Source: Opitutaceae bacterium | GTDB lineage: Bacteria > Verrucomicrobiota > Verrucomicrobiia > Opitutales > Opitutaceae | NCBI GenBank assembly: GCA_030648295.1 | Contig: JAUSID010000224.1 | Location: 1-34,342, forward strand | Direction: 5' to 3' | DNA length: 34,342 nt | Shown here: positions 1,591 through 27,863 of the stretch, piece after piece | How the letters are laid out: the number at the start of each line of letters is the position of its first letter | How positions within the stretch are numbered: position 1 is the stretch's first letter | Notes under the pieces: model-generated | The model's input: only the letters and a program-made list of their open reading frames with translations | The model's database searches: none | What the model was told of the DNA's origin: nothing | Made by a program: the position numbers and the translations under genes

Positions 1591-1919
1591 TGAAAACCAA
1601 AACGGTGAAGCGACGTGCCTCCGCTTCGCGCCGCCGGCCCGGCAAACTCTGGCAACTGCGCCTCTACGTGATGGACGAGACGCCCAAATCGCAGACCGCG
1701 CTCTCGAATCTAAAGAAGATTTGCGAAACCCACCTCAAAGGCCGCTATCGGATCACGATAATCGATCTGTTGAAGCAGCCGCACCTGGCCAGGGGCGACC
1801 AAATCCTGGCCGTTCCCACGGTGGTGCGCAAATTGCCGGCACCCGTGCGAACCGTCATCGGCAACCTTTCCGACTTCGATCGCGTGCTCGTCGGCTTGGA
1901 TCTGCGCGCGGCCGATTAA
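1590..1919 (+). CDS. kaiB: KaiB-family clock protein, copy 1
   Basis: This 109-residue protein has a KaiB thioredoxin-like core ([16 protein letters not shown] at about 23-38, then the [19 protein letters not shown] block and [10 protein letters not shown]). KaiB binds KaiC by switching fold and recruits output kinases or phosphatases. A basic leader of about 20 residues precedes the core. The ATG overlaps the kaiC stop by one base, and a GGGAGGG Shine-Dalgarno-like run lies a few bases upstream, which fixes the start. It sits between kaiC and a second kaiB 13 bases downstream, consistent with one operon. Confidence 0.93.
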
Positions 1920-1932
1920 CCCGGACTCCCCG

Positions 1933-4147: not shown

Positions 4148-4369
4148 AATAGACTATAAGTGACAATCGAACGGCAGGGTTGTGATCCGAACGTTGCGCG
4201 CGCACACCGAATTGATGCGGTTGGCAAAGATGCCACCGCCCTTCATCGATGTCGCGGCACCGTCTCGAACAACCAGGCCCGCTGCGCTGCTGGCCTGCCC
4301 CTGAAGCAACTTGAAGTCCGTATTAGCGTGATGCCGATGTCGTTCTCTGCGCTCAGCCGGCCACAGGCG

Positions 4370-13800: not shown

Positions 13801-13980
13801 GAGGTGCAGGGTGAGTATTACCTGCGCAAGAAAATCGCGGTGTTCGCCACCATCCGCAATCTGAACGCGGCCAGCGATGACTCGAAACGGTACGGCCCAA
13901 GCACGCCGCTGCACGCACGGTTTCGCGACCGCAACGACATCGGCGCCATGTGGTCGATGGGATTGAAGGGATCTTTCTAA
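10840..13980 (+). CDS. TonB-dependent receptor, Verrucomicrobiota/Opitutaceae type
   Basis: This 1046-residue outer-membrane receptor begins with a signal peptide ending near CAAQA (residue 27). A carboxypeptidase-regulatory-like beta-sandwich follows at about 30-110 (GTIEGRVLNLRNGEYLENAR). The plug is at about 125-260 (ASREMDGAAIAINEQRF, NSIKNVVAADEFG, a combination I associate with Opitutaceae receptors). The 22-stranded barrel ends in the aromatic GSF. Such proteins import large substrates using TonB energy; the ligand cannot be told. It is divergent from the secreted dehydrogenase, so the two may serve one substrate. The stop is 104 bp from a convergent gene. Confidence 0.95.
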   Translation: MKTKRPIGSLLTLSLALLTTLPCAAQAVANGTIEGRVLNLRNGEYLENARVTVEGTGLEAFTDTTGQYRLTNVPAGTARVRVFFTGLDVQSAIVDVGPGAVAQRDFNLETGQRPGTTRDDVVRLSQFVVGASREMDGAAIAINEQRFANSIKNVVAADEFGAVTDGNVGEFLKFLPGMAINSVGGEARTFMLNGVPPNNVPITIGGFNLAGGAGSSTSRRVELDQVSLNNISRIEVLHSPTPESPGSALAGSINMVPRSAFERSRPVFNGSVYLLMRDNARDFHKTPGPITGKTRKIYPGFDFSYVKPVNDRFGFTLSGGNSTQYTPLDFMQNTWRGAGATTSTPSAAGPGNFPDTTPDRPYLSDYQVRDGAKLSHRSSAGMTLDYKLTRNDRIAFSFQYAFSDKPFRYRNLIFMTNRVLPGDFTPTSTRGAPGAGEMRLQNEARQKAGTTWMPTLVWRHEGPVWKAEAGAGLSHASNVYSDNDKGYFSASQARRTGVTVSFDDIFYLRPRTITVTDTNGNAVDPYKLSNYTLASSNGNMRHTEDVQRSAYGSLRRDFDVHGVPVTLKSGVDVRNSIRDLRGGTPTFTYRGADGRATTTPLDPLGSDDNAAIVLDEVAAQRTGGFGFPPIQWVSNEEYWGLYQAHPDYFVLNQNNEYRSGVSNSKRAEEIISSAFLRGDVAFFERRLRLVGGLRAEQTNLKAEGPLTDATRNFQRDASGRVILGANGRPLTILPSSDALGVSQLTYLDRGTRAEKEYLRLFPSINASFNVRENLIARAAYYQSVGRPDFNQYAGGLTLPDTENAPSTNNRISVNNVAIKAWSAKTVKVRLEYYFERVGQLSLGAFRRDFENFFGNTTFDATPEFLALYGLDPAIYDPYLVSTQHNITSTVRMTGLEFDYKQALTFLPHWARGVQVFANASALRAIGEASANFNGFVPRVYNWGASLTRERYNLRMSWNYRGRQRDGQITGRGIEPGTYEYTSKILNIEVQGEYYLRKKIAVFATIRNLNAASDDSKRYGPSTPLHARFRDRNDIGAMWSMGLKGSF

Positions 13981-14084
13981 CGAGGCGAAAACATCCCCGA
14001 CGATGCCTTGATGAGTTTGCGCCGCTTTTCCTGCGTTAGTCGCCCGACGCAAAGTCCTACAGCTGCTGCGCACCCAAGCTCCCG

Positions 14085-16196
14085 CTACCCGAAGTGAACC
14101 TCCTCATGGAGAAGAAGCCGCCCGGTTTGATGCTGTTCCTCGACACGACCTTTCAATTGGCAAAGGGCGTGGTTCCAGATCACGTCGTGAACAAAGGCGG
14201 GAAACAGATGCCGAACCACCCACCACGCCGGACGGGACAAGAGGTTTCGTCCCCGCTGGAAATTGAAGGCCGCGTAGATGGAAAGGTGGCAGGTGTCCGG
14301 CCGCGACCGTTCCAATTCAAATACCAACACACCACCGCGCGCGAACCCGTTTTGGACACGATAGACGGCCAGGTGCTCGTCCACGAGACACTCGAGAAGC
14401 AAGCGGAAAGAGAAGCGCGGCAGAGCTACTTGGTATTCGATGGTGCAACCACGGGCGTTGGGAATTCCGGCCACGCGTTGAATCCGGATCCAACGTGGAT
14501 GCAGATACCCCCGATCCAGTTCGCCAAACCGACCCAATTCCTCGAACACTTCCGATTGCGGCGCTCGGATCTTGATGGTGTACATCCGCTCAAATTCGAA
14601 GTGGGACGGCACGGGCAGGTGGATCTCCGCCATCCGGGAAACAAACGCCGCCCGCTTTTCTTCCAGCCGTTCCCGTGCTACGCCAGTGGTGAAACGACCA
14701 AAGCCGTCCCAACACAAACCGAAGACCAATTCCGCGAGATAATTCCTCACGGTCACCGCAACTCCGCCGATCAGGACGGACCGCCAAACCGACGGTCGCA
14801 TCATGAGACGAAAGACCTGTTCGTAGCGATCGTCGCCGCTGGCGATCTTCCAGAGGATGCGCTCGAGCGTCCGCTCCGGCGCCGGCGTGTTCTTCCGTTC
14901 GGTGAGCACGGCTTGATAGAGCACCCGGCTGAGCACCGAAGAACCAAATACCAGCCGATGCAGCAGGAACACCAACGCCGCAAAACGATTATCCCGGCGG
15001 AACTGCCGCAACACGGAGCCGTAACCACGCCGGAGACTTGCCTCGTCCACCCCCCCCTCCAATACCGTGGCGGCCAGCGCGCGGGCGGTCTGTTGAGCCG
15101 AGAGAATTCCGTCCTTGTAAAGCCGCGCCGTGACCAGGTCGCCAATGACTGCCACCCGATGCCCGCATGGGTTGTGCGCCGAGCCGACCACCATGTTGGG
15201 GTTGCACATGCAGGCCAGCCGTAATTGCGTCCGCGGCGGCACCAGGGTGCGGATTTGTGGCAGATCGAAAAACTGTTTCATGATCCCCCGCAAGACATCC
15301 GGTTCCAGCGCCGCATCCACGCTTCGGCCCACCAGCACGGCGGTCAGAAATCCGCGCTTCGGCGCCAGCGAACACATCTCCAGGGGAAGGGCTTTCGAAC
15401 CGTATTCGACGAAATAGACTTCCTCGTCCAGCCACGGCGGTTTCCCCGGTTCCAACTCCATTTCAAAGATCAGCGCGCGGCGCAGACGTGGCGGTTTGAA
15501 ATCGGGCAGTAGCCGCTGGATTGACTGGAACAGCGGGCTGTCCTCCACGGGCTGGCCTGGTTTGCTGTTAACCCCCGCGGCAAACACCAACAGGTCCGCC
15601 TCCAGTTCCTTCTCGATGCCGTTCTGTAGATACGTGACCAGGGGTTTCTCGGTCGTCGAGCGTGCGGCTCCGGTGACCTCGGCGCCGACCAACTCGGCGC
15701 CGGCTCGCTGTGCGGCCTGCAAGAGAAACCCATCCAGATTCTGCTGCGGGTCGCGCCGCCGGCTCGGGCGCGATCCGCGATAGACGGAAAACATCTCCCG
15801 CCCCGCCGGCACCTCGAGCGTGATGTTCTTCCAGTAACCCTGAATCGTGAGGCTGCGAATGCGGCTTTGAATGACGCCTTCGGGCAGCTCCAAGCCCAGA
15901 GTGCGCAACACGTCACTGAGCCGGGGTGAAATCCAACCAGCGCAATGATTGCAGCCCTTCCAGCAATCCGGCCCAATGCCACCGCCAAGGAGCCCCGGCT
16001 GATGTCTCCGCTCGAAGATGACAACCTTGATTGCTCGCTCCAGCTTCCCCGCCCGCCGCAACAGTCGAATGGCAAAGAATGCGCCCGCTGGCCCACCACC
16101 GATCACCGCCACCGTCGCACCCGACTCCAACGCAATCCGGCCTTGGGTTGGGGAGTGATCTTCGACCGCAGTCGGTTTGTTCTGGGCTTGGTTCAC
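14085..16196 (-). CDS. FAD-dependent oxidoreductase (geranylgeranyl-reductase-like) with C-terminal SRPBCC-like domain
   Basis: This 703-residue protein has a Rossmann FAD site VAVIGGGPAGA at about 29-39, then a Cys-rich segment GPDCWKGCNHCAGWISP at about 75-91. FAD-domain motifs continue (YRGSRPSRRR; HRVAVIGDLVTARLYKDGI, the second FAD contact at about 345-365). The last 170 or so residues read like an SRPBCC/polyketide-cyclase-type lipid-binding fold (FEFERMYTIKIRAPQSEVFEE). The family's usual reaction is reduction of prenyl or other lipidic double bonds; the domain pairing suggests a hydrophobic substrate, which is inference. GTG at 16196 is the first start before the FAD motif, and no Shine-Dalgarno is seen. 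It lies 354 bp downstream of a cytochrome-porin gene on the same strand. Confidence 0.85.
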   Translation of the reverse strand: MNQAQNKPTAVEDHSPTQGRIALESGATVAVIGGGPAGAFFAIRLLRRAGKLERAIKVVIFERRHQPGLLGGGIGPDCWKGCNHCAGWISPRLSDVLRTLGLELPEGVIQSRIRSLTIQGYWKNITLEVPAGREMFSVYRGSRPSRRRDPQQNLDGFLLQAAQRAGAELVGAEVTGAARSTTEKPLVTYLQNGIEKELEADLLVFAAGVNSKPGQPVEDSPLFQSIQRLLPDFKPPRLRRALIFEMELEPGKPPWLDEEVYFVEYGSKALPLEMCSLAPKRGFLTAVLVGRSVDAALEPDVLRGIMKQFFDLPQIRTLVPPRTQLRLACMCNPNMVVGSAHNPCGHRVAVIGDLVTARLYKDGILSAQQTARALAATVLEGGVDEASLRRGYGSVLRQFRRDNRFAALVFLLHRLVFGSSVLSRVLYQAVLTERKNTPAPERTLERILWKIASGDDRYEQVFRLMMRPSVWRSVLIGGVAVTVRNYLAELVFGLCWDGFGRFTTGVARERLEEKRAAFVSRMAEIHLPVPSHFEFERMYTIKIRAPQSEVFEELGRFGELDRGYLHPRWIRIQRVAGIPNARGCTIEYQVALPRFSFRLLLECLVDEHLAVYRVQNGFARGGVLVFELERSRPDTCHLSIYAAFNFQRGRNLLSRPAWWVVRHLFPAFVHDVIWNHALCQLKGRVEEQHQTGRLLLHEEVHFG

Positions 16197-16344
16197 GGCC
16201 GGGCATCGGGTGGCAAGCTGCGCACTATGTCAGGAGCGCATTCGAGAATCAAACCGGAGCTCTCGCCCCGTTTTCTGCGGCATGAGTGGCGTTGAAACCG
16301 GCGGCGATTCCAGCCGGCGCAAATCGCTCACTTTACAATGAGTA

Positions 16345-16376
16345 TTCCGCGCATGCCTGCACGTGCATGCGCGGAA
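16345..16376. terminator. 12-bp perfect hairpin between the cytochrome-porin and oxidoreductase genes
   Basis: Arms 16345-16356 (ttccgcgcatgc) and 16365-16376 are exact reverse complements with an 8-base loop. No U-run follows on the - strand, so it could be a transcript-stabilising or attenuating hairpin rather than a classic terminator. The rest of the 354-bp gap (16197-16550) shows no gene. Confidence 0.4.
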
Positions 16377-16550
16377 CAGGAACATAAGAAGCGACGTGCC
16401 GGGCACAGCCGGGGAGTTGAACGTGGGGTCGCCGGTTTCTTTCGGCCCCATGTTGATGATCTTTGTTTCGGTTGGCTGCTGAACCGGGAACGGTGGAACG
16501 CGGCGGGGAACGGCCGCTGTCTTCCTTTGGAGGATATTACAATATCAGTA

Positions 16551-17777
16551 TCAGTACGCAAACATGAGCATCAGGGTGGTGAGTTGGTCGCCGTTTCCTG
16601 GCTTCGGACTAAACCTGTTGCCACTCATCATACGATGGCTTACCTCGATTTTCGTGTTCTGCACCAGTTTGTATTGGAAACCCAACGTGGTGGCATTGTC
16701 CCGATTCCTGGTTTTGGCGCCGGTGTCGGCGGAGCGATAGCCCAGCATGAGTGACAACCGATCCGGAATGACTCCAAGTTGACCCTGCAATGACCATGCG
16801 TTCTTGTCGTTTGGTCCGCTTTTATTGTAGATGCTCTTCGCATCGTAAGGTGCAAGAGCATAGACCGCGTAGAGGCCGAGGGGCATGGTGCCTACCTGAC
16901 CCTGTAGTTGCGCATCTACAGCCATCCCCTTGGTTACATAGTCCACCGGCGAGCCATCCTCGTTGCTGCTTGCAGTGCCGGATTGATACATCACGCCGAT
17001 GGCGGTGTCCCAGTCAGGAGACAAATGCGGCGTAACCGCCACGCGGAGGTAGGGGGCGAGTCCCCTGACTCCGAAGGTGCCAAATTTCGGCGCCCAGAAG
17101 CTGAGGTTGGCAAACCCCCATTCGTTACTGGCAGCGAAGGCCACGCCCTCGGCTGACCCGGCGCCAAGGCCCAGGTACTGCGCGGCCGAGTAGGCGCTGC
17201 GGTCTTCGCCCACCCGCTGCGGACGCAGGATGCCCGTATTGAGCAGTTCGAAACCCAGGCCGGGACCGGCGCTATCGCCAAGGAATGGAACGATGCTTAG
17301 CGTGGTGTTCTCAACCTTGTGAGTGAACGGAACCCTGAGCGCTCCAACACCGGCTTCGCCCGACAGGGCGGAGAATTCAAGCAGAAACCCAATGTGCTCA
17401 CCGGCCCGCCCACCAATCAGCAAGGCCAGTTCGTCCGGGAATTGGAGTTCGCCTTTATTTGTGTCTCTTGTTGGATCGTCGCCGTTCGTTTTCTGATAAC
17501 GCAACTTGGTCACCAAGCCTGCATTCAGCACAACGGGAAGCGACAGATTATCGCCCTTCACCGTTTCCTGTACGCCCATCAACGTATAGCCGTCAGCCTT
17601 GAACGAACGGCCGAAGGCGCTAAGGGCCGGGAAGGTCTGGAAGTGGCAGCTGGCGCATGCGAGGCCGGTCTGGCGGGCGAACGTCGAAACAGCATAGCTG
17701 TCGCTGCAGACCCCCAGTCCAAGGACGCCGGCCAACAGCGCCATCGTCGGGAATATGCGTGATGGTGAATTTTTCAT
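16551..17777 (-). CDS. Outer-membrane monohaem cytochrome-porin (Cyc2-like), copy 1
   Basis: From ATG 17777 this gives 408 residues; the frame is open to 17825, but this ATG begins the signal peptide (MKNSPSRIFPTMALLAGVLG, cleaved near DSYA). The mature N-terminus carries one c-type haem site, CASCH (41-45), in the context FARQTGLACASCH...FPALSAFGRSFKADGYTL. About 330 residues of alternating, aromatic-rich beta-strands follow, ending in MFAY with a C-terminal aromatic, as in outer-membrane barrels. A single haem plugged into a porin is the layout of Cyc2 iron oxidases, though relatives of unknown function share it. A small cytochrome c gene lies immediately upstream on the same strand. A TATAAT at 17785-17790, 7 bases before the ATG, would give an almost leaderless message. 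Confidence 0.8.
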   Translation of the reverse strand: MKNSPSRIFPTMALLAGVLGLGVCSDSYAVSTFARQTGLACASCHFQTFPALSAFGRSFKADGYTLMGVQETVKGDNLSLPVVLNAGLVTKLRYQKTNGDDPTRDTNKGELQFPDELALLIGGRAGEHIGFLLEFSALSGEAGVGALRVPFTHKVENTTLSIVPFLGDSAGPGLGFELLNTGILRPQRVGEDRSAYSAAQYLGLGAGSAEGVAFAASNEWGFANLSFWAPKFGTFGVRGLAPYLRVAVTPHLSPDWDTAIGVMYQSGTASSNEDGSPVDYVTKGMAVDAQLQGQVGTMPLGLYAVYALAPYDAKSIYNKSGPNDKNAWSLQGQLGVIPDRLSLMLGYRSADTGAKTRNRDNATTLGFQYKLVQNTKIEVSHRMMSGNRFSPKPGNGDQLTTLMLMFAY

Positions 17778-17824
17778 ATTTCTTATTATACTTGCATTTT
17801 GTAGTTTTGCGGAACGGCAAAGCA

Positions 17825-17840
17825 CGCATTATATAATGCG
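17825..17840. promoter_or_regulatory. 16-bp perfect palindrome containing TATAAT on both strands
   Basis: Centred at 17832/17833, cgcattat is followed by its exact reverse complement. It lies 47 bp upstream of the cytochrome-porin ATG and 110 bp downstream of the cytochrome c stop. It may be an operator or a -10 element; no good -35 hexamer is visible at the usual spacing. Confidence 0.4.
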
Positions 17841-17949
17841 CGAAGATACGACGGACGAACCGGCTTGGTGTTCTTTTTCACGGCGGACGATCCTTGGGTT
17901 TTCGACTTCCTACCGCCTTCACGGGACCGGGGAACCACCGTCCACCGGG

Positions 17950-18342
17950 CTACTTTTTTGCGACCACCGGGGCGCTGGCAACGGTCACCGGAGCGGCGCT
18001 GCCAAGAATCCAGGCGACGATGGTTTTGAGGTTCTCGTCCGGAACGTACATCGGCGGCATGGGTACCTGTCCCCAAACGCCTTGCCCGCCCTTCTTGATC
18101 TTGGCGATTAGCTTCGCCTGGGCGTCCGGAACCCCCCGGTACTTGTTGGCGACATCGCGGTACGCCGGCCCCACCAGCTTTCCCTCCAATTGGTGACAGG
18201 CCAGGCAGAGATGCTTTGTGGCCAGCGTCTTGGCGGCATCGGCATTGACCTGGGCATGGGCGGCGGGCAAAAGGACGGTCAGGCCGAGAGCCAAAAGGTA
18301 ATTTCGGATCAGGGTTATGCAGTAGCAACGATTGGTCTTCAC
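17950..18342 (-). CDS. Periplasmic monohaem class-I cytochrome c (c551/c552-like)
   Basis: This 130-residue protein has a signal peptide of about 30 residues (cleaved near PAAHA). The haem site is CLACH (46-50) with the usual upstream helix. The distal Met ligand is Met95 in VWGQVPMPPM, as in Pseudomonas c551. The C-terminus is an Ala/Val-rich tail. It would carry electrons in the periplasm. It is encoded upstream of the cytochrome-porin, separated by 172 bp, and is the natural partner to accept electrons from it. The ATG start follows the MKT pattern seen at several other genes here. Confidence 0.93.
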   Translation of the reverse strand: MKTNRCYCITLIRNYLLALGLTVLLPAAHAQVNADAAKTLATKHLCLACHQLEGKLVGPAYRDVANKYRGVPDAQAKLIAKIKKGGQGVWGQVPMPPMYVPDENLKTIVAWILGSAAPVTVASAPVVAKK

Positions 18343-18359
18343 CCCACAATCTTAGCCGA

Positions 18360-18487
18360 CCAAAGTGAAGAGACCTTGAAGAACGGCTTAATTTTTCTTA
18401 AGCCAGCGGCATTCACACGGTGAATGCGCTCCCTTTGCTCGGGGTGCTTTCAACGTCCATCGTGGCGCGATGGGACTCCACAACCCA
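18360..18487 (-). pseudogene. 3'-end relic of a sensor histidine kinase
   Basis: This 128-bp segment matches 20222 onwards, the end and downstream flank of the kinase at 20260-22143, at about 90% by eye. Read on the - strand it encodes the last HATPase residues (WVVESHRATMDVESTPSKG, then SAFTV), a premature stop (tga at 18413-18415) where the intact gene has Arg, and MPLA before the normal stop. The rest of the kinase is missing; similarity ends abruptly at 18487. It sits just upstream of the cytochrome c gene, implying that a kinase once preceded that gene. Confidence 0.85.
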
Positions 18488-18510
18488 CCAGCACGGGCAG
18501 GAGGTGGGGA

Positions 18511-18660
18511 ATGAAGATCAGTCTCTTTCGGTCCATGACCGGGGTTTTGGCTGGCGGGGCGAACTGGCGGCCGGCGACTTTTTCGGTGTATACCACGGCG
18601 GGGCGACGGCGGAGGACCGGGCTCTTGACCTCGCTCGCGACGGTGCTCTCGTGTCATTAA
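18511..18660 (+). CDS. Possible 49-residue protein of unknown function
   Basis: The ATG at 18511 is preceded by the strongest Shine-Dalgarno-like run in the region (caggaggtgggga). The product is basic, with no recognised motif or clear membrane segment, and ends 29 bp before the ATG of the downstream cytochrome-porin. It could be a short leader peptide coupled to that gene, or chance sequence at the deletion scar beside it. Confidence 0.25.
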   Translation: MKISLFRSMTGVLAGGANWRPATFSVYTTAGRRRRTGLLTSLATVLSCH

Positions 18661-18689
18661 CCCCAAGAAGAAAGAAAGGCGACCGTGTT

Positions 18690-20129
18690 ATGAAGACAAG
18701 ATTTCTGCTCAGTTGGCTGGCAGCGCTGGTTGGCGGCTCGTGGCTGTGCTCGGACGTCCAGGCAATCCCTCCGTTTTCACGCCGGTACGGAACGAGCTGC
18801 CAGACGTGCCACGTGATGATCCCCAAGTTGAATGCCATTGGCGAGGCGTTCCGCCTCAACGGATACAGGTTCGCGGATGCCGATGCATCCCTGGTCAAGG
18901 AAGCGCCGGCTGCCCTCGGTGCGCCTGCGTGGAAGGGGGTGTTTCCCAACGCAATGTGGCCGAGTTCAATGCCCGGGCTGCCGCCGGTGGGCTTTCGGAT
19001 CGTCAGTCATATCCAATGGTCGAGCGGCGAGGGGCCGGGTGGCGCAACAAGCAGAAGTCGCGCTAGCTTCGAGTTTCCGCACGAGTTGGAGTTGCTGCTG
19101 GGCGGACGTTTTGACGATCAGTTTGGATTCTTTGCGGAAGCCGAGTGGATGCAGGCCGGTGCCGCGGATATTGTGCAGGCCTGTTTGGTCGCGAACGACT
19201 TTATGTCGTGGGCAGGCGTGCCCGACCATCTTCTCTCGGGACGCATTGGCATCCTGGATCAGCAGTTTTTGCTGAGCTATAGCAACGCGACCCGCGTGAG
19301 CCGGTCGCACCCGCTTTGGGGCGACCGCAAGCTCAGCGACTGGCATTTGCTGGACGGGGCTGGAGTGAGAAAGTCGACGACCGGGTTTCGCCTGCAAGAC
19401 AATCAGCCCGCGATCGAGTTGAACGGGATTTTGGTCCGACGGCTCTATTGGGGCGCTGGCGTGGCCAACGGCACCGGCCCGAGCCGTTTTGACGTCGATA
19501 CGCACAAGGACGTTTACTATAAGCTGAAGTATAAACCGTTCGGAAGCGATTTTCTGGGCAAACTTGCCGCTAATGAAAAAGCAGAAGCCTCCACCGCGAC
19601 CAAGCCGAACGGCGACTCGGTGGACAATGGCCTGCTGCTGGAACATTTCGCCTACTTTGGCTCCTGGACGCCCGACACCGCCGATGCCACTAAAGACCAC
19701 TTCTCGTATCTAGGCGGGGCAGCCCGCTTCATATGGCAGGATTTGGATTTCGCAGTCGGTTATATCCACGGTCACCATGATCAGCCTTGGGGGACAATTG
19801 GTTCCACCGAGAGTACAAATGTCCGGACTTGGTTCATCAAGGCGGAGTATATGCTCTTCCCGTGGTTCATGGTCCGTGCCGTGTACGAGGATTTGGACGC
19901 GGACGAACCCGGCGGCAAGTTGAGGCCGGTCGGGCCGGCCGACTTCGCTGCAGTCGGGTACAACGGCTCGCTCGACGCTCGCAGATTGCTAGTCGGGCCT
20001 ATTTTTGCCCCGCGCGCTAACATCACCATCGCGCTGGAAGCGGAGGTCTTTCCCCAACACAGAGGCGCTGACTTGGTGGGCAAAGACGGTCCGAACAACT
20101 TCTGGATCCGCTTGGATTTTGCCTTTTAG
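18690..20129 (+). CDS. Outer-membrane monohaem cytochrome-porin (Cyc2-like), copy 2
   Basis: The ATG at 18690 is chosen because it begins a signal peptide (MKTRFLLSWLAALVGGSWLC, cleaved near DVQA); the frame is open upstream to 18420. This gives 479 residues. One haem site, CQTCH (37-41), lies in IPPFSRRYGTSCQTCH...PKLNAIGEAFRLNGYRF, the same N-terminal pattern as copy 1. A long barrel region follows, ending LDFAF with a terminal Phe. The two copies are diverged outside the haem motif, so they may bind different donors or partners. It is transcribed away from the cytochrome c gene and converges on a sensor kinase 130 bp downstream. Confidence 0.8.
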   Translation: MKTRFLLSWLAALVGGSWLCSDVQAIPPFSRRYGTSCQTCHVMIPKLNAIGEAFRLNGYRFADADASLVKEAPAALGAPAWKGVFPNAMWPSSMPGLPPVGFRIVSHIQWSSGEGPGGATSRSRASFEFPHELELLLGGRFDDQFGFFAEAEWMQAGAADIVQACLVANDFMSWAGVPDHLLSGRIGILDQQFLLSYSNATRVSRSHPLWGDRKLSDWHLLDGAGVRKSTTGFRLQDNQPAIELNGILVRRLYWGAGVANGTGPSRFDVDTHKDVYYKLKYKPFGSDFLGKLAANEKAEASTATKPNGDSVDNGLLLEHFAYFGSWTPDTADATKDHFSYLGGAARFIWQDLDFAVGYIHGHHDQPWGTIGSTESTNVRTWFIKAEYMLFPWFMVRAVYEDLDADEPGGKLRPVGPADFAAVGYNGSLDARRLLVGPIFAPRANITIALEAEVFPQHRGADLVGKDGPNNFWIRLDFAF

Positions 20130-20259
20130 GAATCACCCCAACCACCACCTGAAGCGTCACCACCGCAGAACTGATATGCGCCGAAGTCGGCCCAGCCACC
20201 GTCCGGCAACGAGGAACATGACCAATGTGAAGAGACCTTGAAGCACGGTTTAATCTTTC

Positions 20260-22143
20260 TTAAGCCAGCGGCAGGCGCACGGTGAATGTGCTCCCTTTGC
20301 CCGGGGTGCTTGCAACGTCCATCGTGCCGCGATGGGACTCCACAATCCATTTGCAGATCGTCAGTCCAAGCCCATAGCCGCTGCCAGCACCAGGACCGCT
20401 CCGGTTTGCCCGATAGAATCGGTCGAAAATATGCGGCAGGTCCTTCGGTTCGATGCCAGTGCCGGTATCACTCACGACGAACTCGGCTTGTCTGTCCACC
20501 GGCCGGCAACTCAACGAGATCCGGCCACCCGGCGGAGTGAATTTGACCGCGTTGTCAACGAGACTGAGGAGCAGTTGCCTGAGTCGCATCTCATCGGCCA
20601 GCAGGGCGACACCTTGCTCGTTCACGATCGTGACCTCGATGCCCTTGTCCTCAGCGAGGATTCGACCCTGTTCGGCCATCTCTTCCATCACCCGGGTGGG
20701 ATTAACCGGCTTGAAATCCAGGCCGGTTTTCTCCGCATCGGCATTGGACAACAGCAGGAGCGTGTCCACCAGGCGCGAAAGCCGCTCGATCTGGGTTGCG
20801 CACGACACCAAGGCTTCCTGGCAACGGCTCGGGCTGGGCTCGCCTTTCAAACCGAGCTCCACCTCGCCTCTGAGTACCGCCAGAGGGGTGCGCAGTTCGT
20901 GCGACGCGTCGGTGATGAACTGCCTCATCTTGTCTTCGATCCCGCGTTTCTCCCGCCAATGCGCCACCATGGCGTTGAAGCTGTCCACCAAGTCCTGAAT
21001 CTCGTCCCGGGTTTGCAGGACCAACGTGTAATTGAGGTTACCCTCCCGGAGAACGTTCGTGCCGACGATGAGCTGTTGGATGGGACGCAGGAACCGTCGC
21101 GCCATCCAGTGCCCGCACAGCACGGACAACACGCCGATGCCGAGCAAGCCCAGGATGAACAGGGTCTGCAGTGGACGAATCGCCTCGAACACCGTCGCGG
21201 TTGGCACGTCGGCAATAAAGAAATGACGGCTGCCACCGCCGTTGCCGACCGAGAACAGGGGAGCGTAAGCGATGACCCGGGACGGGACCTCCGTAATCGT
21301 GCCCGGCGAGCCCGATATAATGCGGCTGACGATCGCGGGCGGGTAGTTGTGGAGAAGGTTCTCCTCCTCTTGAAGGGCGAGCAGCCTGTTCCAGTCCGTC
21401 TTCTTCTGCGAGTGGTACAGGTAATGCCCCTCAGCACTGACGACCAGGACGACTCCGGACGGATAACGGCGCACGTTAAAAAGCTCGAAAAACTTCGCCG
21501 CATCGACGCTGGCCACCAGGATCGCCGTCGGCAAATTCTGCTGGTTGAACAACGGCAGGATGCAGTCGATCGCGGGAACGATTCTGCCGGTCCCGGGATG
21601 CCGGATTTCGCACGGGGAAAACTTGATCTGGCCCGGCTTCATCTCGGCGGTGGCGTACACGTAGAAATTGAAGGGGTGGGTCGCCAGCCGATCCGGCGGC
21701 ACGGCTTGCGGTTTGCCCCCCTCAAACACTACAGCCAACAGCTCCTGGCCGGTCGCATCCAGCAGGTTGACTCGCACGTAGGCCGACGTGTCCTTCAGCA
21801 GACCCAGGAGTTCCTGCGCGGCGGCGTGTGCCACCGGCTGGCGCACGGGGCTGTCCCATTGCAGGTTCTCCGCCAACCGTTGAATTTCCGTCGTGCGGGA
21901 CAGCAGGCGCGTTTCACCTTCGACGCGTGCCAAGAACGATGCCGCCTTTTCCCTCAACTCCGCCACGTCGTTTTTCAGATTCCTCAATTGCTCGGCCTTC
22001 AAGTTGTCGACCTGGGTGCGGATCACGTAACTGCCGATCGCCAGCAGCGGAATAGTGGACAACAGGACAAACAGGGAGGTGAGCTTTCCCTGGATTCCGA
22101 ATCGGCGCGCACGTCGTGGAGGGCTCGAGGTGTTGGCGCACAT
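20260..22143 (-). CDS. Membrane sensor histidine kinase with periplasmic Cache-like domain (HK1)
   Basis: This 627-residue protein has TM1 at about 20-42, a large periplasmic region of about 280 residues read as a dCache-type sensor, TM2 at about 326-345, and HAMP at about 347-398. HisKA follows with SHELRTPLA (His415), then HATPase_c with N-box DNAVKF, DTGTGIEP and GYGLGLTICKW. The kinase half is close to that of HK2 (22902-24347), while the sensor halves are unrelated. The ATG lies 9 bp after the stop of the cupredoxin gene, so the two are probably co-transcribed. The stop is earlier than in HK2 because a TAA replaces a sense codon. It probably signals to the regulator at 24344-25027. Confidence 0.95.
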   Translation of the reverse strand: MCANTSSPPRRARRFGIQGKLTSLFVLLSTIPLLAIGSYVIRTQVDNLKAEQLRNLKNDVAELREKAASFLARVEGETRLLSRTTEIQRLAENLQWDSPVRQPVAHAAAQELLGLLKDTSAYVRVNLLDATGQELLAVVFEGGKPQAVPPDRLATHPFNFYVYATAEMKPGQIKFSPCEIRHPGTGRIVPAIDCILPLFNQQNLPTAILVASVDAAKFFELFNVRRYPSGVVLVVSAEGHYLYHSQKKTDWNRLLALQEEENLLHNYPPAIVSRIISGSPGTITEVPSRVIAYAPLFSVGNGGGSRHFFIADVPTATVFEAIRPLQTLFILGLLGIGVLSVLCGHWMARRFLRPIQQLIVGTNVLREGNLNYTLVLQTRDEIQDLVDSFNAMVAHWREKRGIEDKMRQFITDASHELRTPLAVLRGEVELGLKGEPSPSRCQEALVSCATQIERLSRLVDTLLLLSNADAEKTGLDFKPVNPTRVMEEMAEQGRILAEDKGIEVTIVNEQGVALLADEMRLRQLLLSLVDNAVKFTPPGGRISLSCRPVDRQAEFVVSDTGTGIEPKDLPHIFDRFYRANRSGPGAGSGYGLGLTICKWIVESHRGTMDVASTPGKGSTFTVRLPLA

Positions 22144-22152
22144 GCTAAGGCG

Positions 22153-22737
22153 TTACCTCTTCATCAGGAAGTCCGCGGAAACCGCGCCGCGCTCTGGCAC
22201 GACGATATCCTCGGTCTTCAGGCGCGCGGCCTCATGCCAGGCGGCCAGGCGGTAACTGCCCGGCGGCACGCCCGTGATGCGGTAGGCGCCTTTTTCATTG
22301 GTCACGGCGTAGTAGGGGGTTGGCACCACCACGATGAACGCCGACATTTCGGGATGAACGCGACAGAGCAAAAGGAGCACGTCCGCGCTGTCACACAGTA
22401 TCGTCTTGGCCAACCCAGGCCGGTACGTGCCCAGATCGAACTTCTTGTCCTTCCGTGGAGAAAACACATTGTGCAACACCACATCGTTGTTCGGGAGACT
22501 GACCTTGGTACCGACCAGCACGGGCAGCACATGCGGCACAAAAGTGAGCCTGACCTGGTCCAGCACCGCAGGTTGTTGAGGCGCCGTGAAAGTCTTCCCT
22601 TCGATCTTCTCGATGTAGACCACGGCGTCAGACAGCGCCTGGTGGATGAACTTGACCGTGCCCGTGATCTCCCCGGCGTCCGCAGCCGGCAGACGCAACG
22701 CGCAAAAACCGATAACGAGCGTCACCGCTCTCGTCAT
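22153..22737 (-). CDS. Periplasmic cupredoxin-like protein (MauL/'methylamine utilization'-like) with carboxypeptidase-regulatory-like tail
   Basis: From ATG 22737 this gives 194 residues with a signal peptide (MTRAVTLVIGFCALRLPAAD); the frame is open to 22881. Type-1 copper ligands are visible: His89 (VVLHNVFSP), then Cys125, His128 and Met131 in LLCRVHPEM. The segment FVPHVLPVLVGTKVSLPNND is typical of the family annotated as methylamine-utilisation proteins in metal and one-carbon oxidisers. The last 60 residues (AVTNEKGAYRITGVPPGSYR) form a carboxypeptidase-regulatory-like strand set. The likely role is one-electron transfer in the periplasm or copper sensing for the adjacent kinases. It lies between HK2 and HK1 on the same strand. 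Confidence 0.85.
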   Translation of the reverse strand: MTRAVTLVIGFCALRLPAADAGEITGTVKFIHQALSDAVVYIEKIEGKTFTAPQQPAVLDQVRLTFVPHVLPVLVGTKVSLPNNDVVLHNVFSPRKDKKFDLGTYRPGLAKTILCDSADVLLLLCRVHPEMSAFIVVVPTPYYAVTNEKGAYRITGVPPGSYRLAAWHEAARLKTEDIVVPERGAVSADFLMKR

Positions 22738-22901
22738 TTCCCGTAAGCGCGGAGTCACTATGCCCCATGAGATGGCTCGCGGGCGCTGGTTGCACCCGGC
22801 GCTGGTGCCACCCCGCCACCTGGCCTTCACTACCGGGGACGACCCCGCCCCAGCGCAATGACGATAAGGGTGTTGTATCATGAGTGATGTGACACGAGGC
22901 G

Positions 22902-24347
22902 CTACCCTAGCGAGCCAAGGTGAAGGGTTCCTGAAGTCTGGCTTAATTTTTCATCAGCCAAAGGCAGGCGCACCGTGAACGCGCTGCCTTTGCCCGGTAC
23001 GCTTTCCACCTGGATGGTCCCCCGATGGGCCTCCACAATCCATCGGCAAATGGAAAGTCCAAGCCCGTAACCACCCCCAGCGCCAGGATCGCTCCTGTCT
23101 GCGCGATAGAATCGGTCAAAAACATGCGGCAGGTGCTTTGGTTCGATGCCAATGCCGGTGTCACGCACAACGAACTCCGCCTGTCCGTCCACGGACCGGC
23201 AACTCAAGGTAATCCGGCCACCTGGCGGGGTGAATTTAACCGCGTTGCCAACGAGGTTGAGCAGCAATTGCCTGACTCGCATCTCATCCGCCGGCATCAC
23301 GATCCCATGCCCGTTTACGAGAGTCACTTCAACGCCCTTGGCTTCGGCAAGAATCCGCGTCTGCTCGGCCATCTCGTCCATCACGCGCGTGAGGTTGACG
23401 GGCTTGAAATCCAGCGCGGCCTTCTCCGCGTCGGCGTTGGAAAGAAACAACAGCGTCTCGACCAAGCCGGACAGCCGGGCAATCTCAACGGCGCACAACC
23501 CCAGAATTTCCTGGCATCGGTTCGCGTCGAGCCGGGCTTTCAGACCCAGTTCCACTTCCCCCCTGAGCACCGCTAGCGGGCTGCGCAATTCATGCGAGGC
23601 GTCGGTGATGAACTGGCGCATTTGGGCAAACGACCGGTGCAGCCGCCCCACCATTTCATTGAAGGTTTCGGCCAGCCCTTGCATCTCGTCGTCCGTCTCA
23701 GGCACCCGCAATCGCAGGTCGAGTTCCTGGGCTTGAATCGCCCGGGCGGTCCGAATCATCTCGCGGAGCGGGCGCAGCGCCCGGTTTAGCACCAGCCACG
23801 CGCCGAAACTCGCCAGAATTAGCACGCCCGGCACGATGGCAATCAGGACGAACTGGAACTGCGTCAACGTCTGCTGCACTTCGCGGAGTGGCACGCCCAC
23901 CACGCCCACGTAGAGCAGCTTGCCCTCCTCACTCACCTCTCTCCGCAACATCCGCCACGTTCCGGAACCCGCGACTTGTAGGCTGAGCGGAAGATTGGGC
24001 GGCATCGCAAAGGCAGACCGAAGCGTGTCGGCCACCGCAGCCGGTGAACGGGTGGATTCAAAAATTACCTGCTGCGTTCCGTCCACCACGCGGACATATA
24101 GATCCGGTCCCAACGCGATTAGGGCGGCCCTCTCACTTCCGATTTCCGCTAATCTCGACGGGCGGTCTCTGGGCAACAGATCCACCAGGCAGGTCGCATA
24201 CGTGTTCAATCGTTCGTCCAACTCATGATGGAGCCTCGCCGAAACCGTCTGATATAGCCCCATCGCCACAAGGAAGTGAACGACGCCCAGACTGAGGACA
24301 TACCAGGCGATCAGTCGGAAGCGGATGCTTTTGGAATTGATCCTCAT
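22902..24347 (-). CDS. Sensor histidine kinase, heavy-metal-sensor (CusS-like) layout (HK2)
   Basis: This 481-residue protein has TM1 at about 12-32, a short periplasmic loop of about 130 residues, TM2 at about 164-188 and HAMP. HisKA follows with SHELRSPLA (His252), then HATPase_c (GNAVKF, DTGIGIEP, GYGLGLSICRW). The small loop and order match CusS/IrlS-type metal sensors, but no metal-binding cluster stands out. The ATG overlaps the stop of the response regulator by 4 bp (ATGA), the usual two-component arrangement. The C-terminus runs 17 residues past the point where HK1 stops, and that extension is still recognisable in frame downstream of the HK1 stop. Confidence 0.95.
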   Translation of the reverse strand: MRINSKSIRFRLIAWYVLSLGVVHFLVAMGLYQTVSARLHHELDERLNTYATCLVDLLPRDRPSRLAEIGSERAALIALGPDLYVRVVDGTQQVIFESTRSPAAVADTLRSAFAMPPNLPLSLQVAGSGTWRMLRREVSEEGKLLYVGVVGVPLREVQQTLTQFQFVLIAIVPGVLILASFGAWLVLNRALRPLREMIRTARAIQAQELDLRLRVPETDDEMQGLAETFNEMVGRLHRSFAQMRQFITDASHELRSPLAVLRGEVELGLKARLDANRCQEILGLCAVEIARLSGLVETLLFLSNADAEKAALDFKPVNLTRVMDEMAEQTRILAEAKGVEVTLVNGHGIVMPADEMRVRQLLLNLVGNAVKFTPPGGRITLSCRSVDGQAEFVVRDTGIGIEPKHLPHVFDRFYRADRSDPGAGGGYGLGLSICRWIVEAHRGTIQVESVPGKGSAFTVRLPLADEKLSQTSGTLHLGSLG

Positions 24348-25027
24348 CCAGGGTTGGCGCCCGTTTCCTGCAGGACATAGCCTACCCCCCGCACCGTCTG
24401 AATGAGGGAGGGCTCCACTCCTCTATCCACTTTGTTGCGGAGATGGCTCATGTGCACCTCCACCAAGTTCGTCCCGCTGTCGAAATTGTAGTTCCAGACG
24501 TGCTGCTCGATCATCGTTTTCGTGAGCACCTGCCCCACGTTGTGCATCAGGTACTCCAGCAACGCAAATTCCTTTGGAGTCAACTCGATGGCCCTTCCGC
24601 CGCGACTCACCCGACGTGTGGTCGCGTCCAGGACAAGATCACCGACTTGGAATCTGGGCGGCTGTGGCGTACCGCGGCGAAGCAACGAGCGCACCCGGGC
24701 GATGAATTCGGCCACCGCGAACGGTTTGACCAGGTAGTCATCGCATCCGGTATTCAATCCCGTCACCCGGTCGTGCACCGTGCCTTTGGCCGTCACCGCC
24801 AACACCGGCATCATTTTTCCGCGGTGCCGCAACGTCTTCACAACGGTCAGGCCGTCGCATTTGGGCAGCATCAGATCGACGACGATCACGTCGTAGTCGG
24901 TCGCGGACGCCAGCGCCAAGCCTTCTTCGCCGTCGTAGGCACAATCAACCGCGTAGCCAGTTTCTGCGAGGCTTCGCCTCATGAAACTCGCCACGCGTTG
25001 GTCGTCTTCAATAACTAGGATTCGCAT
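24344..25027 (-). CDS. OmpR/PhoB-family response regulator (CusR-like)
   Basis: This 227-residue protein has a receiver with acidic pair Asp8-Asp9, phosphoacceptor Asp51 (VVDLMLPKCDG) and the conserved Lys in DYLVKPF. A winged-helix DNA-binding domain follows from about 125 (RRVSRGGRAIELTPKEFALLE, then the recognition-helix region NLVEVHMSHLRNKV). It is the first gene of the - strand block regulator-HK2-cupredoxin-HK1 and the only canonical regulator in the window, so both kinases may converge on it. Its targets are probably the cytochrome, porin and cupredoxin genes, which is inference from position. Confidence 0.96.
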   Translation of the reverse strand: MRILVIEDDQRVASFMRRSLAETGYAVDCAYDGEEGLALASATDYDVIVVDLMLPKCDGLTVVKTLRHRGKMMPVLAVTAKGTVHDRVTGLNTGCDDYLVKPFAVAEFIARVRSLLRRGTPQPPRFQVGDLVLDATTRRVSRGGRAIELTPKEFALLEYLMHNVGQVLTKTMIEQHVWNYNFDSGTNLVEVHMSHLRNKVDRGVEPSLIQTVRGVGYVLQETGANPG

Positions 25028-25154
25028 TGCGATGCCCTCATGGCACGTGGATTAGAGATATATTCAAAAGCTGGTGACGGCCATGGCGGCGAAGAAGTGC
25101 GTGGTGCGGCCTCACTCGCGATGCAGTCGACCAAACGCCCGGCGTCCGCAACGC

Positions 25155-27863
25155 TCACGAGGTCTGGCGCACGACAAAGTACGGCTGGTTGGATAGGTCG
25201 GCGGCCAGTCCCGGGCTCAACCACACCTGTCCGTCGTTAGAGTGTAGTTCGAAGTAATACATCACCGCGTACGGCGAGTCCGTATACTCGGCCGGAATGG
25301 TCTGCCGGAACGTGTTGCCTTGCCGCGTCAGGTCGACGACCCGCGGCTCTTCGCCTTGGTTGACGCGCCGGTAATGCAACCGCACTTGTGCGATCGATTC
25401 GCGGGCCGGCACCCCCAGCTCGATCGCCAGCGGCTCTCCGCGCCGGAACGACGCCGGCGGCACATGCGCGAGTCGCGCCCGCTGGCCGGGTTTCGTCGCG
25501 GATGCGAGCGCGTTCGCGAACAGCGCCGCCGCCTTATCCGGCTGGGCGGGGACGTTCGCAGGCAACTGGCTGAATGCCTTTTCCATTGCCGCGAGGTCGC
25601 TTTGAATCGCCGGCAGCCGATCCGCCCAATGTCCGCGCAAGACCGGCTCGCGGCCATAGGTGAGATCATCGCGATAGGCCGTCCTACTGACGTCGATGAT
25701 TTTCTGCCACGTGTCCCGTGCGGCGCGATAATGCTTCACCGCCTGCTCGAGGGCGGCGCTCGATTTCTTCCGCTGAGACACCGCGTAAGCGACGCCGGCG
25801 CGCAGCTTCTGCGCGAGGAACCGGCCGGTTCCGCTCTGAATCGCCACGTCGATCGCCAGCCGCCGGAACGCCGCACTGGCCGGCCGCCTAATCGCGGCTT
25901 TCGCCTTGGCCAGATCAGCGTCGGCGCCATCGGCGAGTGCTTCGAGCCACCGGGCGACGTCGAGCGGAGAATATTTCCCGCTCCGCGTTGCCTTCACCAG
26001 CTCATCGGCGAATTCGTCGATGCTGGAGAACAGGTTGGGATCGATCGCGTGCACGGCGGTGAACCGCCCGCCGATGATCGGGATGTTGGTATAAATCTCC
26101 GGCCAGTAGCTGTTGTTCGACGCGGACGGCAGGTGCGCCGTCGTCACGAGCGGCAGGATCCGGCTGGCTTGCGCGAGCGCGCCTTCGCAGTCGCGCGCCG
26201 CCGGACCGAATTCCGCCCGCAGAAAACGGCGCCAGCCGTCGGCATCCGTTTTCGGGTTGTACAGGAGCCGGCCCCACACCCGGTAAGTGATGAGATGCTT
26301 CTGCCAGTCTCCCGCCGGCCGCAGTGCCGTATCCGCGTATCCATTTCGTTCACCCGGCAGGCCCGAGCCCATCCGACCTTTGAATGAGAGCGGCTCGCAC
26401 AACTCCAGCCCGAGCGAGCCGCAAAAATGCGATAGCTGGCCGTACCCCGCGGCCATCGCCGGATCGCCCCACAGGAGAAACCGCTGCGTACCCGGCCACA
26501 TCCGGTAAAGCACGCCGTAGCGGCGGTCCTCGCGCAGGTAATCGCCATAACCGTAGCGGGTGAAACGCCGCTCCTGCTCGATCGTCGCGGTCTTGCCCGC
26601 CACGCGCTGGAACTTCTCTCCTTTCTGGATGCCGGCCTGGTGATATGGCAGCCCCATGTGCTCGGCCCAATATTTCGGCGACACGTTGACCGGCATCCCC
26701 GTCTTAATCGCCATGTCGAGCAGCTTGTGCTCAATGCCCTTCGAGTGGATGTCGATCTCGACGCGGCGACCGCAGCGCGCCACGCCTTCGAAGATCATCG
26801 GCCAGAATTCATACGATCCCTGCGGGACCCCGCTCTCGGAATGGCAGCGGAACGTGACGCCGTCGATACTTGGGCACGCGCGCAGCAGCTGCTCGAGTGC
26901 GGCGCGACAATAAGGGCCGTGAGTCTCCGTCGTGAGTCCGTCGATCGGGTAATTGACCTTCGGACTATTGGCGAACTCATACGCGTGCGTCCAGAGCCCG
27001 AGCTGGAAATGCAAGCCGCGGCCGGTGGTTTCCGCGCCAATCCAGCGCAGCATCGCGAGGTTCCGCTCCCGTTCCGCGTCGGGCAGCCCGCGCGCCGTCA
27101 CGTTGAAACCCGGCACCGTCAGCAAAAATGGATACGCAAAATAGAAATAGGAATCCGGCACGTTGCGCGGCGCATTGTAGCCGAGCCCGAGGGTGAGACT
27201 GAACCGGTTGAACCGCTGCGCCACCAGCATGCCGAGATACTCGGTCCAGAACTTCTGGTCGTAGAACCACGCCTTGTCCTCGACATCGCTGCTGAAGAGC
27301 CGCGCCACACTCCGGATGGGATTGGCCGGCTGCTCCACGAGCCTGGCCGTTTTCAGCACGGTCAGCGGCGCGTCGCCATAATACACGCGATCCGCGAGCT
27401 CCAGCAGCGCGTAAACCAGTCCGCGCCCATCGGAGCCACACACGGCCAGCACGGCGTGGCCCGCCGCGCGCCCGCGCGCGAGGACCAATGCCTCGGCGGC
27501 TTCAGGCACCGGCACGCCCGCACTCGCGAGCGCCTGGGCGACGACGCTCGCACGGCGGCTCCCAACCAGGATGCACTCCGCGTCCGCCGGAACGTCCGCC
27601 AGCCGCGAAAATGGCCGCACGCTGACGCCGCGAGCCTCGAGCGCTGAGCGTAATTGTCCCACCGCCCACTGCACGGGCGGTGTCTTCGTCGTCGCGTCGC
27701 TTGTGTCCACCACCACGGCGACACCGCTGCCGGCACCCTGGCCGAACACCCGCGTTCCAAGCAGGGTTCCGCTCGCGACCAATGCCGTCGCCGCGGTGGT
27801 TTTTCTGATGAAATCGCGACGGCTTTCGCGAGCGCGGAATGAATTCGTTTCGCTGGAGGGCAT
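25155..27863 (-). CDS. Tat-exported large protein, glycoside-hydrolase-like (GH67-N/GH20b-type N-domain)
   Basis: This 902-residue protein has a twin-arginine signal (SRRDFIRKTTAATALV) ending near VFGQ. Residues 45-160 resemble the alpha/beta N-domain that precedes barrels in GH20, GH67 and GH84 enzymes (GVAVVVDTSDATT, AVCGSDGRGLVYALLELADRV). The middle looks like a TIM barrel (FNRFSLTLGLGYNAPR, GVTFRCHSESGVPQ). The C-terminal 300 residues are helical, followed by a beta-rich cap. I do not recognise a precise family or the catalytic acids. It probably acts on a periplasmic or surface polysaccharide. The stop is 127 bp from the start of the response regulator. Confidence 0.8.
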   Translation of the reverse strand: MPSSETNSFRARESRRDFIRKTTAATALVASGTLLGTRVFGQGAGSGVAVVVDTSDATTKTPPVQWAVGQLRSALEARGVSVRPFSRLADVPADAECILVGSRRASVVAQALASAGVPVPEAAEALVLARGRAAGHAVLAVCGSDGRGLVYALLELADRVYYGDAPLTVLKTARLVEQPANPIRSVARLFSSDVEDKAWFYDQKFWTEYLGMLVAQRFNRFSLTLGLGYNAPRNVPDSYFYFAYPFLLTVPGFNVTARGLPDAERERNLAMLRWIGAETTGRGLHFQLGLWTHAYEFANSPKVNYPIDGLTTETHGPYCRAALEQLLRACPSIDGVTFRCHSESGVPQGSYEFWPMIFEGVARCGRRVEIDIHSKGIEHKLLDMAIKTGMPVNVSPKYWAEHMGLPYHQAGIQKGEKFQRVAGKTATIEQERRFTRYGYGDYLREDRRYGVLYRMWPGTQRFLLWGDPAMAAGYGQLSHFCGSLGLELCEPLSFKGRMGSGLPGERNGYADTALRPAGDWQKHLITYRVWGRLLYNPKTDADGWRRFLRAEFGPAARDCEGALAQASRILPLVTTAHLPSASNNSYWPEIYTNIPIIGGRFTAVHAIDPNLFSSIDEFADELVKATRSGKYSPLDVARWLEALADGADADLAKAKAAIRRPASAAFRRLAIDVAIQSGTGRFLAQKLRAGVAYAVSQRKKSSAALEQAVKHYRAARDTWQKIIDVSRTAYRDDLTYGREPVLRGHWADRLPAIQSDLAAMEKAFSQLPANVPAQPDKAAALFANALASATKPGQRARLAHVPPASFRRGEPLAIELGVPARESIAQVRLHYRRVNQGEEPRVVDLTRQGNTFRQTIPAEYTDSPYAVMYYFELHSNDGQVWLSPGLAADLSNQPYFVVRQTS

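Follow-up and report, generated by a model that had tools for sequence, protein, structure and literature searches.

The DNA analyzed here, referred to as the window, is one entire contig of 34342 bp (JAUSID010000224.1, C73 in our numbering) of the Opitutaceae bacterium GCA_030648295.1, whose genome of 9.12 Mb is assembled in 294 contigs with an estimated completeness of 96.6 and contamination of 4.0%. It carries a gene, here named A, which we classify from its sequence as encoding a Cyc2-type fused cytochrome-porin. On balance, we favor the view that A is an acquired gene for an outer-membrane electron entry to a c551-type cytochrome and to oxidases, with a sensory block alongside, and that iron may serve the host as a source of energy. 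This view builds on the sequence family and tree position of A, the barrel predicted for its product, the gene order, the oxidase genes of the host, and the lack of a RuBisCO match in the one host genome.

The gene order on the minus strand is a response regulator (RR), a sensor kinase (K2), a cupredoxin and a second kinase (K1), followed by a cytochrome-porin gene (B) on the plus strand, and then by a small cytochrome gene, A and a flavin adenine dinucleotide (FAD)-dependent oxidoreductase gene on the minus strand. A first-pass annotation had proposed that two Cyc2-like porins, a cytochrome and a rusticyanin-like cupredoxin form an electron chain with a dedicated sensor block. All genes named there were recovered as open reading frames (ORFs) at the same positions, and its observation as a whole was confirmed. 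Of its interpretation, A, the barrel and the c551 neighbor were retained; the assignment of B to Cyc2 was not supported, and the analogy of the cupredoxin to rusticyanin is unlikely.

A is located at 16551..17777 on the minus strand. Its ORF reaches 17825 with a GTG start, and an ATG at codon 17 yields a protein of 408 aa. As described before, the protein holds a single CxxCH haem site (residues 41-45; 17643..17657, minus strand) and ends in Tyr; both A and B begin with a hydrophobic stretch that, judged by eye, resembles a signal peptide. Keffer et al. (PMC8406198) define Cyc2 by two signatures around the haem site, the motif AXPXFAR[Q/K][T/Y] ahead of it and, at a distance of four residues behind it, PxL. 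In A, the sequence is AVSTFARQT..CASCH-FQTF-PAL, which agrees with six of the seven fixed positions of the motif, with Ser in place of Pro, and carries PxL at the given distance. The published screen PXFAR[Q/K][T/Y] would miss A. One haem site and 408 aa, leader included, also accord with a single CxxCH and a length of at least 365 aa. In A as in B, the haem end is left uncovered by Pfam and NCBIfam models; a sequence search of the PDB with A gave no match, and a plasmid search gave five weak records.

An AlphaFold model of A, built on 17 sequences, forms a barrel with a predicted local distance difference test score (pLDDT) of 71, a predicted template modeling score of 0.74 and 20 strand segments of at least three residues. 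Foldseek returned 277 PDB matches at E ≤ 0.001, the best 50 of which are outer-membrane barrels. Among them, OprO (4rjw) and OprP (2o4v) match at E 5.6e-10 with a TM-score of 0.53. These two porins are the structural kin named for Cyc2 by Keffer et al. (PMC8406198). The structure prediction suggested in the first-pass annotation thus returned a porin-type barrel, and we take A to be a fused porin of the 16-stranded kind, the strand number of the model not being exact.

The phylogeny of A points in the same direction. A scan of genome contigs with A gave 46 stretches, in which 19 loci were confirmed, 14 of them in Zetaproteobacteria, including Mariprofundus erugo. Four of the five remaining matches extend to the last residue of A or the last but one. 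The closest relatives, at about 56-60% identity, are encoded by metagenome-assembled genomes (MAGs), namely a Burkholderiales groundwater MAG (L028, 59%) and the Thiobacillus MAG UBA4768 (L029, 56%); two Nitrospirae groundwater MAGs follow with 45-47%, and a Nitrosomonadales MAG with 38%. Nearly full-length relatives at 36-60% identity are above chance. In the order to which the Thiobacillus genome belongs, 25 of 200 genomes show matches to A (E 1e-10). In a tree of 56 rows, A groups with L028 and L029 (support 100/100) and next with two Nitrospirota proteins (99/99), within a clade of 29 rows (100/99) that holds 11 Zetaproteobacteria Cyc2 proteins, that of M. erugo among them; 22 other Cyc2-like rows form a separate clade (100/100). 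The grouping with Zetaproteobacteria Cyc2 bears out the expectation of the earlier annotation as far as A is concerned.

According to McAllister et al. (PMC7029218), Cluster 1 of Cyc2 is largely composed of proteins from Zetaproteobacteria, Gallionellaceae and Chlorobium ferrooxidans, and we infer that A belongs to it. Like the Cluster 1 proteins of M. ferrooxydans PV-1 and other neutrophilic iron oxidizers (PMC8406198, PMC7029218), A has one CxxCH, FARQT, PxL and an OprO/OprP-like barrel, and it stands in the clade of M. erugo and other Zetaproteobacteria Cyc2. It differs in the Ser for Pro, in a host that belongs to another phylum and shows no RuBisCO match, and in its position next to a c551/c552 cytochrome and a sensory block. 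For PV-1 Cyc2, a redox potential of 208 mV has been published.

A broad Cyc2 profile matched seven of 387 genomes of the host's phylum, including the host. Six other Cyc2 proteins from four of these genomes (two each in G122 and G283, one each in G541 and G257) form a clade of their own in another Cyc2 lineage (SH-aLRT 100). The match in G177 is a B-family protein, and that in G585 is weak (E 4.6e-7) and was not placed in the tree. A is therefore the sole Cyc2 placed in the Zetaproteobacteria-type clade among the 387 genomes. Forcing A together with the three other Cyc2 proteins of the phylum in the 56-row tree costs 350 log-likelihood units and is rejected by the approximately unbiased test (p 3.8e-5). 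With the phylum's other Cyc2 proteins in a separate lineage, vertical descent of A within the phylum was dismissed. In G283 (contig C16, loci L130 and L132), a second Cyc2-type gene is broken by a stop codon.

The first-pass annotation knew of no iron oxidation of this type in the phylum. This holds in part. Cyc2 homologues in Verrucomicrobia, from Trout Bog MAGs, are already in print (PMC6344600), and they share phylum and protein superfamily with A, as do those of the four other genomes; the six Cyc2 proteins of these genomes, unlike A, belong to another lineage, and the Trout Bog sequences lie outside our comparison. No Cluster 1 Cyc2 assigned to Verrucomicrobiota was found in the available parts of PMC6344600, PMC8357290, PMC12285243, PMC10367259 and PMC13264449. 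A is thus a further Cyc2 of a type already known, from a lineage in which it is new.

The small cytochrome beside A (17950..18342, minus strand; start codon uncertain) belongs to the c551/c552 family (PF00034), with its CxxCH site at residues 46-50 of the ORF (18193..18207, minus strand). Its earlier description as c551-like is well supported, as it matches 18 distinct PDB sequences at E 1e-5, the majority designated c551 or c552, with solved chain 1ayg as the best (E 4.9e-23). A plasmid search returned 27 records, with identities of up to 54% (Thiothrix) and no coverage above 80% of the query among the matches listed. In the Thiobacillus MAG UBA4768, a cytochrome with 57% identity over 84 aa lies beyond the homologue of A, separated from it by a single ORF, and is itself followed by an OmpR-type regulator and a kinase. 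At another locus (L032), a Cyc2 gene is situated about 2.3 kb from genes that by eye resemble alternative complex III, a five-haem ORF and others. The small cytochrome is likely the electron acceptor of A.

The earlier annotation had proposed looking for terminal oxidases and CO2 fixation genes in the genome. Oxidase genes of the haem-copper type are present: in the host genome, COX1 is matched six times, once below cut-off, and NrfD four times. One NrfD match shares the same 6 kb of contig C252 with a COX1 match. From the ORFs, by eye, we read the sets on contigs C257, C72 and C252 as aa3-type, cbb3-type and alternative complex III-linked, respectively. In Acidithiobacillus ferrooxidans, electrons take the route from Cyc2 via rusticyanin and Cyc1 to an aa3 oxidase (PMC10654088); together with the oxidase genes of the host, this makes a chain from A via c551 to an oxidase possible. 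As to CO2 fixation, no RuBisCO match was obtained in the host genome; other CO2 pathways were not searched. Thus, autotrophy by the RuBisCO pathway is not indicated, and the several oxidase and NrfD-type genes in a genome without RuBisCO point to a mixotroph or heterotroph. Apart from these sets, 20 kb of host contig C49 (2000-21900, L110) bring together a 13-haem cytochrome gene, a four-haem gene and three matches to NrfD. A porin-multihaem complex was considered there and discarded, since the neighbor of the 13-haem gene encodes a DUF2339 protein and no porin.

In the mechanism we propose, the single c-type haem in the N-terminal segment of A would receive an electron at the cell surface from a reduced donor in solution, for which Fe(II) is the most likely candidate. 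The c551/c552-type cytochrome would take this electron over from A and carry it across the periplasm to oxidases encoded elsewhere in the genome. A itself may have been gained from bacteria similar to Betaproteobacteria or Nitrospirota. The cupredoxin, K1, K2 and RR would form a sensory block of two kinases, one regulator and one periplasmic copper protein, which probably makes the electron-entry genes respond to metal or redox cues, with RR as the presumed controller. The host would use electrons from iron as extra energy, i.e., mixotrophically. The host lineage is known mainly for polysaccharide degradation. If A works in this way, neutrophilic iron oxidation of the Cluster 1 type has reached this lineage by gene transfer, in a mixotroph or heterotroph given the lack of a RuBisCO match, and surveys of cyc2 would have to include it. 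The linked cupredoxin-kinase block would offer a testable answer to the question of how the donor is sensed and cyc2 is regulated.

Several observations weigh against this proposal. The motif position at which A has Ser is occupied by Pro in 16 of 16 aligned relatives. In the model of A, residues 1-51 and 65-81, which include most of the haem region, have a pLDDT below 50, too low to place the haem relative to the barrel. The Cyc2 of M. ferrooxydans PV-1 is absent from the 56-row tree, and Gallionella and Chlorobium are not in the set by name; assignment of A to Cluster 1 is hence drawn from its Zetaproteobacteria neighbors. To our knowledge, the subclade closest to A has no tested member. A lies 172 bp from the small cytochrome gene and on the strand opposite to B, which makes co-transcription uncertain. 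No operator repeat shared by the promoter regions emerged from a simple scan, so that the idea of RR controlling A and B is conjecture based on gene position. Sigma-70-like sites were looked for in 14000-25400, and none was detected. The missing RuBisCO match counts on the same side. Finally, some relatives of the cupredoxin occur in a setting that fits an electron carrier: two of 29 lie near COX1 or CtaA, and one in genome G961 lies between a homologue of B and genes for an FAD/FeS protein, a Rieske protein, cytochrome b and an eight-haem cytochrome.

A doubtful but serious alternative is that A is a Cyc2 homologue for another donor or purpose and that the host gains no energy from iron. A might then serve humic compounds or reduced organic ones, render Fe(II) harmless in the vicinity of the cell, or help to balance redox state. 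The absent RuBisCO match would suit such a role, as would the gene to the right of the block, whose weak, below-cut-off match to a galacturonidase model hints at a saccharide degrader. Keffer et al. (PMC8406198) also allow for additional functions of Cyc2. Against this alternative stand the Zetaproteobacteria Cyc2 proteins in the clade of A, as well as the Fe(II) oxidation reported for the published Cluster 1 protein of Mariprofundus in the same source.

The second porin, B, is located at 18690..20129 on the plus strand; an ATG at codon 91 of its ORF gives 479 aa. The single CxxCH (residues 37-41; 18798..18812, plus strand) and the C-terminal Phe that had been noted are both present. Its membership in Cyc2 did not hold: its AIPPFSRRY agrees with five of seven motif positions, and PKL follows three residues after CxxCH, so we do not file it as Cyc2. 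Hence, of the two porins reported as Cyc2-like, A groups with Cyc2 while B falls into a different cytochrome-porin family. Identity of B to its nearest relative is 28-31%; its homologue L163 in G961 reaches 31% over residues 12-409. In the tree, both form a pair (100/99) on a long branch inside a group of 30 rows apart from A and the other Cyc2 proteins (99/96). Many members of this group read AIPAFARKY and some AIPAFSRQT; we speak of FARKY-type cytochrome-porins. In the phylum around the Nitrospirae MAG G290, 55 of 198 genomes match B (E 1e-6), mostly in its N-terminal part.

B is accordingly classed as a distant, Cyc2-related cytochrome-porin of a family common in Nitrospirota. With the members of this family, which occur in Nitrospirota and one Mariprofundaceae genome, it shares the N-terminal haem motif, a similar length and the pairing with L163; it differs from them by FSRRY in place of FARKY and by its low identity to its nearest relative, in a tree without a tested member of the family. 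An A-type protein and a protein of B's group occur together in the Mariprofundaceae genome G296 and in the Nitrospirae genomes G290 and G291. McAllister et al. (PMC7029218) found that 65% of Zetaproteobacteria genomes with a Cluster 3 cyc2 (n=15) also have Cluster 1. We infer that B's family may correspond to Cluster 3, in a comparison that does not include Leptospirillum Cyt572 by name. The barrel of B is weakly supported, as its structure model has a pLDDT of 38 and is unusable; the PDB sequence search gave one match (E 0.87), and the plasmid search with B gave none. In G961, a genome of the phylum around G290, the B-type porin gene (L191) stands by genes for a cupredoxin, an FAD/FeS oxidoreductase, a Rieske protein, a split cytochrome b and an eight-haem cytochrome, possibly an electron chain of its own.

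The cupredoxin gene (22153..22737, minus strand; ORF reaching 22881) ends 9 bp before K1. The type-1 copper set H...C-x2-H-x2-M reported earlier is present, and a carboxypeptidase-regulatory domain, overlooked at the time, is attached. The family is represented in 80 of the 236 genomes in the class of the host, and four times in the host including this one. We sampled 29 loci of the class (L134-L162). The H, C, H, M pattern was found in 26 of the 29 relatives, and the other three carry the same letters by eye. The downstream ORF encodes a HisKA protein in 18 loci and a protein with a cyclase domain in five; these 23 sensors, by eye from 23 different loci, follow the cupredoxin directly with gaps of -16 to +24 bases. 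In L142, the downstream ORF ends after a HAMP-like stretch. Three downstream ORFs, set off by 94-294 bases, encode COX1, CtaA and a 2-oxoacid dehydrogenase subunit, and those of L148 and L159 appear by eye neither sensor-like nor respiratory. Upstream, 15 of the 29 loci have an ORF of 399-483 aa ending in Phe; of four such ORFs scanned, one showed a weak BBP2 porin match and three showed none. An OmpR-type regulator, confirmed by Pfam in all four cases, lies directly upstream in four of the 29 loci.

Beyond the class, relatives named methylamine utilization protein directly precede a dCache-HAMP-GGDEF-EAL protein on one plasmid each of Comamonas and Caballeronia. These share with the cupredoxin of the window the copper letters, the carboxypeptidase-regulatory domain and the position directly upstream of a HAMP sensor. 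The differences are a histidine kinase, K1, with a dissimilar sensor half as partner, a second, paralogous kinase, and cytochrome-porins nearby. As an observation in its own right, an arrangement of a Phe-ending ORF of barrel length, a cupredoxin with a carboxypeptidase-regulatory domain and a membrane sensor with varied outputs recurs in the host's class; neither this module nor the cupredoxin-EAL pairing was found in print, by title or the beginning of the abstract, in a single literature search.

The sensory block comprises, in addition, K1, K2 and RR, all on the minus strand. K1 (20260..22143) has HisKA, HATPase_c and HAMP domains. Its sensor half is Cache-like, with matches to HK_sensor_dom_bact and dCache_1 that stay below cut-off, and shows no detectable similarity to the sensor halves of the two plasmid EAL proteins and no match in the plasmid search. 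K2 (22902..24347) and RR (24344..25027; PF00072, PF00486) match best the models of the metal-responsive CztS/CopS-like kinases (TIGR01386, E 2.6e-77) and CztR-like regulators (TIGR01387, E 1.2e-79), both below cut-off. Pfam thus bore out one OmpR-type regulator and two kinases. The kinase halves of K1 and K2 are 62% identical over 320 aa and 78% over 670 bases, and the two are paralogous in this half; the sensor halves are not shared. Given the common kinase half and different sensor halves, both kinases may feed the single RR.

It is unlikely, in our judgment, that B, the cupredoxin and K1 together constitute an outer-membrane redox or metal sensor, in which the haem porin would signal the presence of the external donor, or the donor's redox state, via the copper protein to the Cache kinase and the shared regulator would switch on the acquired Cyc2-c551 genes. 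If this were true, the host would sense redox conditions at its surface with a circuit dedicated to iron oxidation, and this circuit would be based on the wider barrel-cupredoxin-sensor module of its class.

Quite unlikely, too, is the chain originally proposed, in which two Cyc2 porins deliver electrons to the small cytochrome and a rusticyanin-like cupredoxin. Every part of it is found within 8.5 kb, the B homologue of G961 adjoins a cupredoxin homologue near a Rieske/cytochrome b set, and COX1 or CtaA lies near the two cupredoxin relatives noted above. Set against this are B's departure from the Cyc2 motif, the 23 of 29 cupredoxin relatives directly before membrane sensors, four of them with an upstream OmpR-type regulator, and the two plasmids with an EAL sensor protein. 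Moreover, no ORF with CxxHxxM was found in the fetched flanks of the other B-family loci scanned. The cupredoxin's context is not the respiratory one by which we would recognize a rusticyanin-type carrier. With the 23 direct sensor neighbors and the 9 bp to K1, it is probably no rusticyanin analogue and likely a sensory protein paired with K1. The Acidithiobacillus rus operon (Cyc2, Cyc1, rusticyanin; PMC10654088) likewise places a cytochrome-porin by a periplasmic cytochrome and a copper protein; here, in contrast, the cluster holds no oxidase genes, the cytochrome is a monohaem c551-type instead of a c4-type, and the copper protein belongs to a mostly sensor-linked family.

That the contig is a contaminant or chimera with genes of a groundwater betaproteobacterium or Nitrospirota bacterium is highly unlikely: the contamination estimate, the 294 contigs, the closest relatives of A in other phyla and a lower GC content at third codon positions (GC3) in the block than in the two immediate flanking genes would fit, but the right-flank gene 127 bp from RR is 49-54% identical in seven further genomes of the family, A has diverged by about 40% from the proteins closest to it, and the cupredoxin family is widespread in the class and occurs four times in the host. 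Given this kinship of the right-flank gene within the family of the host, we read the block as a horizontal acquisition on a genuine contig. Composition is weak evidence for acquisition: GC3 is 0.69-0.79 in the block genes and 0.84 and 0.80 in the two flanking genes, and goes down to 0.735 elsewhere on the contig. No tRNA or Rfam match marking an integration site was found in the window.

The right-flank gene, outside the block (25155..27863, minus strand), has matches in 15 of 61 family genomes, including the host; one of the seven relatives mentioned aligns over residues 211-902 only, and the gene is missing from both other genomes of the same genus. The left flank is formed by a TonB-dependent receptor gene (10840..13980, plus strand; Pfam Plug; TIGR01782, E 6.4e-84, below cut-off; GC3 0.84). 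Between it and A, downstream of the latter, lies the FAD-dependent oxidoreductase gene (14085..16196, minus strand; FAD_binding_3; GC3 0.72). Homologues of this gene were absent from the Cyc2 loci compared, a plasmid search gave no match, and its part in the electron-entry system is uncertain.

A DDE transposase gene (PF01609) lies at 5199-7013, about 7 kb to the left of the acquired block. The left end of the window (1-3542) is occupied by a row of genes for a KaiC truncated at the contig start, a pair of KaiB proteins and a PAS histidine kinase. It is followed at 3551-4993 by two neighboring HTH genes of similar appearance, of which that at 3554-4147 shows a below-cut-off match to a response-regulator receiver domain.

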